Origin: a virus
Reading direction: 5' to 3' (one strand)
Virus record (IMG/VR): IMGVR_UViG_3300024327_000031
Coordinates: 1-27,461 of that record
DNA: 27,461 bases
In this document: piece by piece, positions 3 to 21,246 of the stretch
Layout: the number at the start of each line of letters is the position of its first letter
Position numbering within the stretch: the stretch's first letter is position 1
Made by a program: the position numbers and the translations under genes
Notes under the pieces: model-generated
Told to the model about the DNA's origin: nothing
Databases searched by the model: none
The model's input: only the letters and a program-made list of their open reading frames with translations

Positions 3-1070
3 TTATTCATCCATGTTAAGGGCTTCATCATAAATATTCTTTAATAACTTCTTTACTTTAACCTTCTCATCCGTCTTACTACCATCCATAGCATCTACAT
101 ATTCATCTAAGAAATCTGATGTATTGCCAATCTCTACATCCTCATCGTCACCTTCAGCATACCTAGCACTATACTCTGATAAGTCTTCAAGTATAGTGAA
201 ATCTGCTAAATCTGATTCATATAGTCTATCAACAAATGATTCATATTCACCTGTATTATTTTTATTCTCTACTATAAGTTTTACAATCTTACTCTTATAA
301 TACTGTGTATCTATTGTTGAATAATCTGTATTTTCATCATCATAATAGATTTTCTCAAACAACCTAAACTTGTTACGGATAAACTCTAGCTCTCTGGTTT
401 CAGTATCAAACACATGAAAACCTCTAGGGTCATCATAGTCGTTCCAAGTGATTTCATAAGGAGCTCCAAGATAATGTATATTCTCTTTGCTTGACTTATG
501 ATGATAATGTCCAGAACATACTACTTCATATTTGTTGAATATATCTTTTGAGATACCATCCTCAGAATTATATCCTTTGTACATTGCAAATCCAGCAATT
601 TCTAAATGTCCTAATGCAACTTGTGATTTAGAATTCTTAATAAACTTTACAGTATTATCATAGTTCTCTGAATTTATCCAAGGGATTAAATCAATATCAA
701 TTTCACCCACATGAATTGTTTCGGCTTCTGGATATACTGAAACATTATCATAATGCCCATAAAGTAATTCAGAACTATTAACAGAATTTGTATTTCTATA
801 ATAAGTAGAATGATTGCCTACAATAGAATGTAATTTAATATCACGTTCTAAATAAATATCAAAATAGAACTGTCTGACTTTATCAAGTGTATTAAAATTA
901 ACAAATTTTCTGCGATCAAAAGTATCGCCAAGATCAATAACAGTACAAATATTATTTTCAGACAAATATGGAAAAAATTGTTCACGGTAAAAGGTCTCTA
1001 TGTGATTCAAAAAGTTTTGACTGTCCTGCTTCCCTCCGAAATGTTGATCTGTTATCAGAGCGATTTTCAT
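3..1070 (-). CDS. 47: gp47-like recombination endonuclease subunit (SbcD/Mre11 family)
   Basis: This is the nuclease subunit of the gp46/gp47 complex, which in T4 resects DNA ends for recombination-dependent replication. The calcineurin-like phosphoesterase motifs are all present: D8-x-H10, G48-D49-x-x-D52, G85-N86-H87, G154-H155 and G187-H188-x-H190. The block LGAPYEITWNDYDD near residue 201 is typical of the T4 family. The open frame extends upstream to 1211, but I place the start at 1070 because the protein then begins MKIALITDQHFGG, as family members do, and the codon is preceded by GGGAG at good spacing. This gives 355 residues, close to T4 gp47 (339). The upstream part of the frame is better explained by the overlapping zinc-ribbon gene. 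The gp46 ATPase partner is expected just outside the window. Confidence 0.93.
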   Translation of the reverse strand: MKIALITDQHFGGKQDSQNFLNHIETFYREQFFPYLSENNICTVIDLGDTFDRRKFVNFNTLDKVRQFYFDIYLERDIKLHSIVGNHSTYYRNTNSVNSSELLYGHYDNVSVYPEAETIHVGEIDIDLIPWINSENYDNTVKFIKNSKSQVALGHLEIAGFAMYKGYNSEDGISKDIFNKYEVVCSGHYHHKSSKENIHYLGAPYEITWNDYDDPRGFHVFDTETRELEFIRNKFRLFEKIYYDDENTDYSTIDTQYYKSKIVKLIVENKNNTGEYESFVDRLYESDLADFTILEDLSEYSARYAEGDDEDVEIGNTSDFLDEYVDAMDGSKTDEKVKVKKLLKNIYDEALNMDE

Positions 1071-15638: not shown

Positions 15639-16721
15639 TTATAAGTCAGTTATAGTTGTTGTTGTATTTATTGGTGCATCATCAGGGTCAGCTGTTGTTG
15701 GGTTTGGTACAACATTAACATTAACTACTGGATCATCAATAATAAAATTTGTTCCAGTATTAACATCAACTTCCCTAATAATTCCTTGGTCAGAGGTTGG
15801 GCCATACAAATAACCCTGTACTGTAAATGATAGAGTATGAACTAAAGACCTTCTTGAAAGAAAATCACCTTCATAATCATCTTCCGTTGACATACTATTT
15901 AAAATAATTGGTATATCTCTTTTTATTCCCAATGATTTCATTTCGTTCATTGTCACATGAAACTCTGGTGTAAAGTACGGCAAAATCTGTTCAAGTATTT
16001 GTGAACCATCATCACTATTTAAAACCATAATGGATAAATCAATTTCAAAGTTATATGGGACAGGTGTATAAATAGTTTGTAATGTAGTAGTATTTGCATC
16101 AACATTAGCTGTTACTGTTGCTGGGAATATTGAACTGTTAGTTGGTTCACTTGTATTATTTTTAATTGTAACATTTGGTATTGATGTATAACCAGTTCCA
16201 GCATTAGTTAATGTAATACTTGTAACAACACCATTTTGCAAACCACTTACAATATTATTTTCTGAATCAGCTACTGTAATTACTGCTGTTGCCTGTGTGC
16301 CACCTGTTGGTGGAGCATCTATCTCAACAGTAGGAATTAAAGTATAACCAGAACCACCATTAGTTATTTCAATACTTTCTAATGGGCCAAGCATTTTTAC
16401 TTCTCTTATTTTTTTTGTTGATTGTAATTTCCTTGTCGTGTCATATGTCATCGTAGTTATTTCAAACGACATTCTTGGAAGAACCATTCCAACGTTTTCT
16501 TTTAAATCAGCATTACCTTGAGAATCATTAGCAGAAAATAGTTCACCTTGATCTAATTTAGATAAATACTTTTGCGCAGGGCCATACGCAATAGGAACTT
16601 TCAATGTGTTTTGAATAGTACCATTAGACAATGTTCTTTTTATAGTTATATCATTAAATACAGTTCCAAATAAAATAACTATATTTCTTATATTCTTATT
16701 GTAGAAATATTTTCCAAACAT
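15639..16721 (-). CDS. 15: gp15-like tail sheath terminator with inserted beta-repeat module
   Basis: gp15 caps the tail and joins it to the head. The N-terminus (MFGKYFYNKNIRN, then ITIKRTLSNG, KVPIAYGP) and the block YFTPEFHVTMNEMKSLGIKRDIPI with FLSRRSLVHTLSFTVQGYLYGP (about 249-307) align with T4 gp15. The protein has 360 residues instead of about 272. The excess sits mainly at residues 112-216: two copies of a motif (GGSGYTLIPTVEI and AGTGYTSIPNVTI) each followed by Ala/Thr-rich strands, a type common in phage adhesins. The C-terminal 40 residues are a Pro/Thr/Asp tail. Its ATG overlaps the gp14 stop (TAATG). Confidence 0.9.
   Translation of the reverse strand: MFGKYFYNKNIRNIVILFGTVFNDITIKRTLSNGTIQNTLKVPIAYGPAQKYLSKLDQGELFSANDSQGNADLKENVGMVLPRMSFEITTMTYDTTRKLQSTKKIREVKMLGPLESIEITNGGSGYTLIPTVEIDAPPTGGTQATAVITVADSENNIVSGLQNGVVTSITLTNAGTGYTSIPNVTIKNNTSEPTNSSIFPATVTANVDANTTTLQTIYTPVPYNFEIDLSIMVLNSDDGSQILEQILPYFTPEFHVTMNEMKSLGIKRDIPIILNSMSTEDDYEGDFLSRRSLVHTLSFTVQGYLYGPTSDQGIIREVDVNTGTNFIIDDPVVNVNVVPNPTTADPDDAPINTTTTITDL
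15665..15672 (-). promoter_or_regulatory. Possible late promoter before gp16 (one mismatch)
   Basis: AATAAATA on the minus strand, 35 bases upstream of gp16, inside the end of gp15. One mismatch to TATAAATA; the same variant occurs before the fibre gene at 20290. Weak on its own. Confidence 0.25.
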
Positions 16722-17593
16722 TATAAATCTCCCTCACTCCAAGGATCAATTTCACTAAAATCTAAAATGTTATCACCCTCTGTTTCAAATATTTTATTAT
16801 CATCATATTCAGATGTTGAAATAACTTGGTCATCCTGTGATTGAATAGTATTTGTATGGTCACTACCTCTACTGTTTACGCCTACACCTTGAATAGTTTC
16901 ACCATCTTGAAATGCACCAGAAACACGATAAACATCTAATAAAGTACCAGCCATTGATGAAACTTTAGCAGTAGCACCAGATGATTGTCCAGTAATAGTT
17001 TCACTAAGTACAAATTTTTCACTATCATTAAATGCTGTACCTACTGAAAATCTTCTTGTTACTGCATTTTGTCTTTCAATCTTATCAAATACAGCACCCA
17101 TCTCATCTACAGAAACATCAAATAACTGATTGTTATAACGAAACAATTCACAATTTAATTCATATACAGTATTTTTTCCTAATGTGTAAAATGGTTTTTC
17201 GTGTTCGACAAATTTAATTTCATATAAACCTTTACCTAATGGAAGATAAATTAAATCACCCTCTCTTGGAACGCGAAGGCTTACTTCTTCTAAAAATCTT
17301 TCTTTGTTTACAATTAAATTTAATTCGTCTTGTATATCTAAACCAAATTTAGAAACTGCATCACCAGAACCTTCAAATCCTTCTGGTGTATTAATATACA
17401 TTTCTACTTTTCTAACAGAAATAAATCTTGATGTTGGTTCTTCATTATATATTGTATCTTTCTCAGAAGTCGATTCTCGTACAACATACATTATTTCAAT
17501 TCCATTTATTTCAATTACTTCTTTAGTTAAAGCGTTAAGCAATTCCTGTTGTGGAAATGAATTAAAATTTCTAAAATAGTTATTAACTGGCAT
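16721..17593 (-). CDS. 14: gp14-like neck protein with inserted module
   Basis: gp14 and gp13 form the neck that completes the filled head. Conserved family blocks include MYINTPEGFEGSGDAVSKFG (65-84), PREGDLIYLPL (109-119), LYEIKFVEHEKPFYTLG (123-139), YELNCELFRY and the C-terminus ILDFSEIDPWSEGD (276-289). Between the core and this C-terminus, residues 192-237 contain a duplicated motif (FVLSETITGQSSGATAKV, then FQDGETIQG) that looks like an inserted small beta module. Total length is 290 against 256 in T4. The gene begins one base after the gp13 stop. Confidence 0.9.
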   Translation of the reverse strand: MPVNNYFRNFNSFPQQELLNALTKEVIEINGIEIMYVVRESTSEKDTIYNEEPTSRFISVRKVEMYINTPEGFEGSGDAVSKFGLDIQDELNLIVNKERFLEEVSLRVPREGDLIYLPLGKGLYEIKFVEHEKPFYTLGKNTVYELNCELFRYNNQLFDVSVDEMGAVFDKIERQNAVTRRFSVGTAFNDSEKFVLSETITGQSSGATAKVSSMAGTLLDVYRVSGAFQDGETIQGVGVNSRGSDHTNTIQSQDDQVISTSEYDDNKIFETEGDNILDFSEIDPWSEGDL

Positions 17594-19078: not shown

Positions 19079-20290
19079 TTAGAAAGTACCGCCGTCAACT
19101 TCATCAGACCACACTGGAGCTCCACCAGAAGAAACCATAAGTTTCTGACCAGCTGAACCGATTGTGAGAACTGTCATGTCAGCTGTACCAGCACCAACTA
19201 GGATACCTTCAGCAGTAACAGCTTGAAGACCAGTACCACCAAGGGTAACAGGCATTTCAGACTGAACAGACCATGTTCCACCTGATACTGTACCAACACC
19301 AGTTGAGCTAGATGTATCAATACCAAATCCACCATATGTTGATGTAATGATATCTGCGTTCCATGTACCAGCTGTAATCGTACCAAGACCTGTGATAGCT
19401 GTCTGTGAAGCAGTTGTCAATGTACCGTCAATGCTTCCGAAAGCAGCATCACCCAAAGAACCAGTCATTACTTCGCCGGTATTGGTTGCATCTTCGATGA
19501 ACTTAAATTTCTTGTCGGTATCATCCATACCCATCCAAGAGAACTTTGCAGCTGCGCCATATTTCATTGCAACACCACGATCTTTACTATCAGCTGCGTT
19601 AGCACCCAATGTAAAGATAGGATCAGCAACTGTAACAACAGTTGAATCAACTGTTGTGGTTGAACCTTGAACAGTCAAGTTACCAGAAATTGTAACATTA
19701 CTTGAAAGATCAATTTGAACAGCAGCACTTTCTGTACCACTTGATTGAATATTCAAGTTGTTGTCTACGTTAGACAATGTTGCAACGTAGTTACCAGTTG
19801 TATCTGTTCCCAGAGCAACAGCGTTAGCTGCAACACCATTTACAGTTGCAGTACCATCAGCACCAATTGAAACATCACCAGAAAGTGATTTATTATCCCA
19901 AGAATTTGTACCATCATAAATTAGAACCTGTGCAGTCGATGGGTTAACAATATCTGTATCAGATGCCTGTGAGATAGGATTAGTATTAGCAAGAAGTTCT
20001 TGCTGGACAAATGCAGTTGTTGCGAGTTGAGTTGTGCTTGTAGTTGTTGCAGCTGTAGGAGCTGTTGGAACACCCGTCAATGGAGTATTGTTCAAGATAT
20101 CATCAGCGAAAGCAGATGTTCCTGTACCACCGATTGTACGAACAACAGCACCAGCTGATGTCATATCACCGATATACAAAACACCTTCTCCACCACCTGT
20201 ACCATGATCTACCCATGCCAATTCACCTTTAGCAAGACCAGTAGGTGCTGCATTAGCGGAGGATCGTTTAATTTGAATTGTATTAGCCAT
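19079..20290 (-). CDS. Fibre-like virion protein with MANxIxIKRS N-domain
   Basis: This 403-residue, Thr/Ala/Gly-rich protein is typical of marine T4-like adhesins. The N-terminus (MANTIQIKRSSAN, then LAKGELAWVD and GVLYIGD) is a small virion-attachment type domain also seen at the start of phage tropism determinants. Then come TTQLATTAFVQQ, a VLIYDGTNSWDNKSLSGDV element, and beta-rich repeats such as VTVADPIFTLGANA and ITGLGTITAGTW. The C-terminus has the common GQKLMVSSGGAPVWSDE module and ends DGGTF, an ending shared with the small protein at 20417-20641. A terminator follows and an AATAAATA box lies 20 bases upstream. It likely forms a trimeric fibre or baseplate decoration. Confidence 0.8.
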   Translation of the reverse strand: MANTIQIKRSSANAAPTGLAKGELAWVDHGTGGGEGVLYIGDMTSAGAVVRTIGGTGTSAFADDILNNTPLTGVPTAPTAATTTSTTQLATTAFVQQELLANTNPISQASDTDIVNPSTAQVLIYDGTNSWDNKSLSGDVSIGADGTATVNGVAANAVALGTDTTGNYVATLSNVDNNLNIQSSGTESAAVQIDLSSNVTISGNLTVQGSTTTVDSTVVTVADPIFTLGANAADSKDRGVAMKYGAAAKFSWMGMDDTDKKFKFIEDATNTGEVMTGSLGDAAFGSIDGTLTTASQTAITGLGTITAGTWNADIITSTYGGFGIDTSSSTGVGTVSGGTWSVQSEMPVTLGGTGLQAVTAEGILVGAGTADMTVLTIGSAGQKLMVSSGGAPVWSDEVDGGTF

Positions 20291-20416: not shown

Positions 20417-20641
20417 TTAGAATACACCACCATCATTATCGTTGATAACTTCTATATCTATTGGAACGAATTTTTCTGTTGTAGAGTCATATACTAAAAC
20501 ATCATTATCGTTCAAACCAATTTTATTTACGTCTGATAAATCCACCAATGGCGGTGTAACACCAGACCCAGTAGCTGCAGCTGTGCCTAATGCGGGTGAA
20601 AATATTGGATTTCCGTTATTAAAATTTACTTGTATAGGCAT
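20417..20641 (-). CDS. Small fibre-associated protein sharing the DGGxF ending
   Basis: This 74-residue protein carries LNDNDVLVYDSTTEKFVPID (43-62), the short 'DVLVYDSTTGKW' type motif that recurs in marine phage fibre proteins and appears as VLIYDGTNSWDNKSL in the neighbouring 403-residue protein. It ends NDNDGGVF, like that protein's DEVDGGTF. Its start overlaps the stop of the preceding gene (TAATG). It may be a cap, connector or adaptor of the fibre, inferred only from the shared modules. Confidence 0.6.
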   Translation of the reverse strand: MPIQVNFNNGNPIFSPALGTAAATGSGVTPPLVDLSDVNKIGLNDNDVLVYDSTTEKFVPIDIEVINDNDGGVF

Positions 20642-21246
20642 TAGATTATTGTTACCTCTGGTCTAATTGTTATAATACCGTCAATAACTCTTTCTTTGGG
20701 TATTGAAACATAATCACTACCACCAGCATCAACTGTTATAGAATTTACTATTCCATTCGCATCAATAGTTGCAGTAGCAGTTGCACCAGAACCTCTTACA
20801 TCACCAGCACCAAGAACTCTTGTATCAGTAATAGTTACAGCAGGTGCTGATGTATAACCAGTACCAGCATTTTCAATAGTTATCTCTGATATAGCACCGT
20901 CTGCATTAACTTTTGCAAAACCAACAGCACCAGAACCACCACCACCTGTTATGGCAACAATAGAGCCTGTTCTATTAGTCAACTCAACATCATACACCCA
21001 TTTTCCATTTTTTAAATTAGATGTTTGAATTGGTGTTAATCTCAGCTGTATTTTACCAGTAGCAGCATCCATAACAACAACTGTAATGTTTTCTTTAGGA
21101 GAAACAGATTTATAATGTCTTCTTATTTGTGACGCAAGAGTGTGTCCTGTTATATCCCTTGTCGAACCATTTGTATTCATCAAGTTAATATCAGCCATCC
21201 AATTTTGTCCAGCATTTAAATCTTGATTCCATTTTACTGAAGCCAT
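20641..21246 (-). CDS. Baseplate/fibre-type beta protein with inserted GTGYT module
   Basis: The outer parts of this 201-residue protein, residues 1-96 and 185-201, together look like one beta-sandwich similar to the N-terminal domain of baseplate upper (BppU-like) proteins: VKWNQDLNAGQNWMADINL, DITGHTLASQIR, GKIQLRLTPIQTSNLKNG, YDVEL and finally DGIITIRPEVTII. Between them residues 97-184 hold an insertion with AGTGYTSAPAVTI and a second, degenerate copy AGGSDYVSIP, plus GSGATATATI strands. The same repeat family is inserted into gp15. No clear ribosome binding site beyond AAGGTAAAT is visible before the ATG. Confidence 0.65.
   Translation of the reverse strand: MASVKWNQDLNAGQNWMADINLMNTNGSTRDITGHTLASQIRRHYKSVSPKENITVVVMDAATGKIQLRLTPIQTSNLKNGKWVYDVELTNRTGSIVAITGGGGSGAVGFAKVNADGAISEITIENAGTGYTSAPAVTITDTRVLGAGDVRGSGATATATIDANGIVNSITVDAGGSDYVSIPKERVIDGIITIRPEVTII

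Follow-up and report, generated by a model that had tools for sequence, protein, structure and literature searches.

A dispensable, fast-evolving GSGYT-type beta-domain in the gp15 sheath terminator of a marine T4-like phage

Among described tail terminators, the nearest point of comparison for the protein considered here is gp15 of phage T4 (PF16724; PDB 3j2m, 4hud, 9mkb), in which the conserved hairpin ends in a short turn at K100/G101, and residues 203-245 are in contact with residues 178-256 of gp14 (PMC12270204); the opening of the T4 ring is only 5-10 A (PMC3004832). In phage P1, a hairpin of the terminator gp24 (residues 128-150) enters a groove of the tail tube (PMC10304247), and in the phage 812 terminator gp99 (8qkh, 8q01), an outer beta-sandwich clamps sheath domain I against the tube, an arrangement called unique in that study, which also reports frequent neck breakage in 812 particles that have lost their neck decoration proteins (PMC12886913). 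The grafting of an accessory beta-domain onto a virion protein is of an already-known kind. In 936 lactococcal phages, accessory domains are carried on several virion proteins (Dit, MTP and the neck passage structure), some of which have been shown to bind the host, and the carbohydrate-binding module of the neck passage structure shows weak binding to host cells (PMC6669499); the carbohydrate-binding module of the A-1(L) neck fibres did not bind the host (PMC10966104).

The window analysed here is a virus record of 27,461 bases, whose terminase shares ~55% identity with the terminases of Synechococcus phage S-B05 and of the Methylophilales phages Melnitz, and which by sequence is therefore a marine T4-like phage, distant from the cultivated ones. 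Its neck genes follow the usual order, gp13-gp14-gp15-gp16-gp17, with gp15 placed between gp14 and the terminase genes (Table 1). Likeness to the T4 terminator extends over the full length of the core, including the conserved hairpin and the C-terminal part: PF16724 (E 6.8e-69) and phrog_227 (E 3.3e-75) each match in two stretches flanking the middle; phmmer recovers T4 gp15 at E 2.6e-28, again split (query 1-97 aligned with T4 1-88, query 210-349 with T4 101-247); and the top Foldseek match of the whole gp15 model is T4 gp15 (9mkb_AB, E 9.7e-14). These split matches bear out an earlier sequence-only reading, which had proposed a GSGYT module inserted in the middle of gp15 with T4 gp15 recognizable on both sides. 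Where T4 has its short turn, the window protein has 100 additional residues, which alignment with insert-free relatives and with T4 places between the residues matching K100 and G101, in the hairpin turn that links the strands LPRMSFEITTM and YTPVPYNFEIDL. The interval originally given for the module, 16074-16388 (residues 112-216), lies near the insert as delimited here, but takes in about seven core residues of the next strand and misses two residues at the start.

Table 1. Features of the gp15 and gp14 genes, in coordinates of the window.
Feature	Position	Residues	Strand	Basis or remarks
gp15, tail/sheath terminator (T4 gp15 family)	15639..16721		-	360 aa; PF16724, phrog_227, phmmer, Foldseek
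gp15 core strand leaving hairpin	16023..16061	221-233	-	AlphaFold2 secondary structure; conserved YTPVPYN
Inserted domain, two GSGYT-type units, in beta-hairpin turn ('site A')	16095..16394	110-209	-	Alignment with insert-free relatives and T4; six-strand fold
Unit 2 (...AGTGYTSIPNVTI...), three strands	16101..16232	164-207	-	AlphaFold2 strands 164-173, 184-187, 202-207
Unit 1 (...GGSGYTLIPTVEI...), three strands	16269..16382	114-151	-	AlphaFold2 strands 114-121, 131-134, 145-151
gp15 core strand entering hairpin	16443..16475	83-93	-	AlphaFold2 secondary structure; conserved LPRMSFEI
gp14 neck / head-closure protein, without GSGYT units	16721..17593		-	290 aa; PF11649 E 3.6e-35; phrog_460 E 2.8e-62
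gp14 hypervariable non-GSGYT module (SETITGQSSGATAKV...GETIQG)	16844..17053	181-250 (gp14)	-	phrog_358 match 188-244

Both halves of the insert are repeated GxGYxxxPxV units of ~40 residues and three strands each, and the two GxGYxxxP motifs that had been noticed at first sight are found in it (16332-16355 in unit 1; 16176-16199 in unit 2). In an AlphaFold2 model of whole gp15 (43 sequences; mean pLDDT 70.6, pTM 0.47), most blocks of the insert score ~80, with values under 50 in the linkers at 106-108 and 210-215, while the insert modelled alone (28 sequences) reaches pLDDT 83.4 and pTM 0.73, with six strands arranged as two units of three. According to these predictions, the insert is a separate, independently folding domain which, in the single-chain model, lies outside the core fold, in line with the sequence-only reading. 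Fibre and neck profiles (PHROG) give E-values of 1e-10 to 1e-12 on the segment, which, together with the presence of a same-site domain in 36 distinct gp15 proteins, argues that the insert is not a product of chance. Foldseek searches of the insert against BFVD returned 12 matches at E < 1e-3; the predicted phage proteins recovered include an endosialidase and a long tail fibre, and also, with a weaker match, the neck protein of cyanophage S-RIM32. Against PDB folds there was no credible match (best E 1.5). Nor did the insert match any entry in Pfam, NCBIfam or PDB sequences, PF16724 being the only Pfam match in gp15. The label 'adhesin-type' thus holds as a resemblance, and no known adhesin or carbohydrate-binding family was found for the insert in Pfam, NCBIfam, PDB sequence or PDB fold. 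A literature search for the GSGYT motif found nothing relevant, and one scan of GTDB genomes, with patterns drawn from the insert of the window, gave no bacterial relative, which is a weak negative.

The insert is dispensable, as judged from its distribution. When a tblastn search with the insert removed from the query was sampled at even spacing down a ranking of 2,365 phage records, the insert was absent from all 60 of the 60 gp15 matches, each of which formed one unbroken piece; T4 gp15 also lacks the segment, which is hence not universal in T4-like phages. Of the 277 distinct gp15 proteins fetched, 36 have it, nearly all of these being from uncultivated phages. In the marine clade surrounding the window, the hairpin insert is found in 36 distinct proteins, while 38 are without the module and a single one bears it at another place; well-supported branches force at least four gains or losses at the hairpin site, and the domain also persists throughout a large clade. 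One insert-free protein (L037) is nested in a well-supported insert-bearing group, and the gp15 cores of L201, which has the insert, and L237, which lacks it, are 91% identical. A mis-joined contig or assembly artefact was rejected as the source of the insert, since the 36 distinct proteins that carry it include some that are identical on independent contigs.

Rates of change also set the domain apart. Across 26 insert-bearing proteins, identity averages 53% in the insert vs 76% in the core, and dN in the insert is about three times that of the core at similar dS, giving, by a crude Nei-Gojobori estimate, dN/dS mostly of 0.3-0.9 in the insert vs 0.1-0.3 in the core, and below 1 in nearly every pair. 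Fast evolution is a tendency of exposed surfaces, which this pattern fits; it can alternatively reflect relaxed constraint, given that dN/dS is mostly 0.3-0.9 and not above 1. The GxGY..P core is nonetheless retained across the aligned copies with the reading frame intact, the invariant columns of the insert alignment (A3) being G20, G22, Y23, P27, G72 and P79. The window's insert is 41-67% identical to other gp15 inserts (98% in one near-copy). Two pairs of records depart from uniform divergence in opposite directions: the cores of L035 and L036 are 99.5% identical vs 81% for their inserts, with the first 360 bases of gp15 identical and the next 120 diverging by 23-28%, whereas L018 (4280-4573) and L022 (4283-4576) have dS of 0.04 in the insert vs 0.49 in the core. 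The latter pattern looks as if the module had recently been exchanged between lineages, and both patterns would follow from local recombination of the module.

The GSGYT module is widespread in marine phage virion proteins. It had been described from the window sequence as usual in fibres, which the Foldseek and PHROG fibre matches uphold, but this was too narrow: the module matches baseplate wedge as well as fibre families, and occurs in gp14 and in the sheaths of two myophages. In the latter, Stenotrophomonas phage Ps15 and Salmonella phage PT1 (L088, L089), a pair of GSGYT-type units is inserted mid-protein in an otherwise normal contractile-tail protein, as here, although the protein is the sheath rather than the terminator and the phages belong to other groups. 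Cyanophages S-T4, P-TIM68 and S-SKS1, and many viral contigs, have units like those of the window on the adjoining neck protein, before the C-terminal end of gp14 (phrog_460), and a gp15 without them; the window has the reverse arrangement, and a search of its gp14 for the module gave no match. In no case among the 277 distinct gp15 proteins is the module present in gp14 and gp15 together; where gp14 is in view, it is in gp15 only in 35 cases, in gp14 only in 18 and in neither in 197, although these groups are phylogenetically clustered, so that the exclusion is no independent test. A 201-aa reading frame of the window (20641-21246, minus strand) joins a fibre-assembly-like N-terminal part (phrog_1084, phrog_3304) to C-terminal GSGYT units, an unusual combination of an assembly-type domain and a virion-surface module. 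Recent copying of the gp15 insert from this reading frame is not favoured, identity between the two being only 44% over 50 residues.

Mean pairwise identity along gp13-gp16 has two low points, the gp15 insert (55%) and residues 181-250 of gp14, other regions being at 65-84%; the gp14 segment varies more than any other in the neck genes (43% vs 68-71% in its flanks), and occupies the part of gp14 where other phages (S-T4, P-TIM68) have GSGYT units. The hairpin site of gp15 holds unrelated inserts in L093-L095 and L099. A second gp15 site lies near the C-terminus, in the region corresponding to T4 gp15 203-245, where the gp14 arm makes contact; GSGYT units are found there instead in L096 and L099, and unrelated additions in L001, L003, L142, L157, L158, L160 and others. 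In L157 and L158, gp15 is 450 aa long and has an extended LLED/ENG-type repeat as an insert close to its C-terminus, and the gp15 of L214 (1679-2719) has an in-frame tandem duplication of ~100 residues spanning the hairpin region.

We lean, somewhat to the probable side of even, towards the insert being a surface decoration that is dispensable and exchangeable and that probably binds weakly. The hexameric gp15 ring would end the sheath, with one two-unit beta-domain per subunit in the core-hairpin turn, and we infer six copies surrounding the ring as decoration, forming no part of the terminator machinery. As six copies of ~10 kDa would hardly fit inside a ring like that of T4, an outer position is the natural expectation, and one to which both the evolution of the domain and analogy point. 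The main helix of the terminator core follows the hairpin, and it likewise follows the P1 hairpin and, by reading of the sequence, the 812 beta-sandwich; the T5 and A-1(L) terminators have a tube-directed loop that is apparently similarly placed. Foldseek relates gp15 to both 8q01_M (812; E 4.7e-5) and 8jan_A (P1; E 2.6e-4), and the equivalence of the sites was judged by eye, hhalign against the 812 and P1 terminators giving non-significant E-values of 0.63 and 0.45. If the hairpins are equivalent, then by analogy this one probably faces the tail sheath rather than the head, and the domain would most likely lie on the outside of the ring at its tail-side edge, next to the sheath top. Projection at the level of the T4 whiskers, as first suggested, is accordingly doubtful, because the hairpin apparently corresponds to the one that reaches the tube in P1 and bears the sheath clamp in 812. 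Like ancillary virion modules elsewhere, the domain may through an exposed face take part in weak, accessory binding, for which glycans of the host surface or the environment are the most plausible partners, and a putative contact of the gp15 insert with the host is possible. The 936 phages offer a precedent in a different family, where binding was measured for a separate neck protein, whereas the window's domain is part of the terminator and is known from sequence and model.

The main rival is that the domain grips the top sheath ring, or gp14, and strengthens the joint of neck and tail with no host contact. Phage 812 gp99 likewise adds a further beta-domain to the terminator core, apparently at the same hairpin, and its clamping of sheath domain I, the broken necks of undecorated 812 particles, the Foldseek ties, and the position of the 812 domain and the P1 hairpin ahead of the same strand and helix, all lend weight to such a role. 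The 812 domain differs in sequence, however, and the window's is of fibre type and dispensable; close relatives lack it, few segments of the neck genes are more variable, and its module recurs in gp14 and fibres, where gripping of sheath domain I is not expected. The equivalence with the 812 and P1 sites is also not significant by sequence. We consider a gripping role less likely than decoration, but a serious alternative. A further alternative, that the domain is a docking site, holding a neck appendage or the long tail fibres in place or restraining them in the manner of T4 whiskers, with its variability tracking that of the appendage, seems improbable. A loop of T4 fibritin has been reported to touch gp15 (PMC3004832), although newer work places fibritin on gp13 (PMC12270204), and the collar spikes of XM1 bind gp4 and gp5, its neck-2 and terminator proteins (PMC10457771). 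The window itself encodes a 403-aa structural/fibre-like protein (19079-20290, minus strand) upstream of gp13, where T4 has wac, that could be a neck appendage; no partner of the domain was identified, however, and L037 and other relatives manage without the domain. Finally, repeated gain and loss, and the unrelated inserts at the same site, would suit a functionless mobile module tolerated in a permissive loop, but the conserved GxGY..P core and intact frame, dN/dS below 1 in almost all pairs, and retention through a large clade make this very improbable.

No description of a hypervariable insert that toggles in a sheath terminator and is paired with a hypervariable gp14 module was found in the literature searched, and terminator rings are usually regarded as conserved plumbing. 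The natural gp15 pairs identified here, one with 91% identity with and without the domain and another with 99.5% identical cores and 81% identical inserts, are ready comparisons for the role of neck decoration. Further, the GSGYT module has no solved structure or Pfam family in the libraries searched, and one structure would inform many proteins. More broadly, we tentatively propose, as possible though short of probable, that the gp14 and gp15 rings of marine T4-like phages act as a display platform, in which a few fixed sites accept exchangeable, fast-evolving beta-modules (GSGYT, SGATA, LLED-type and others) and provide a second, neck-level binding zone. The decoration of gp15 described here suggests that, in this group of uncultivated marine T4-like phages, the neck is a place for the display of exchangeable modules.
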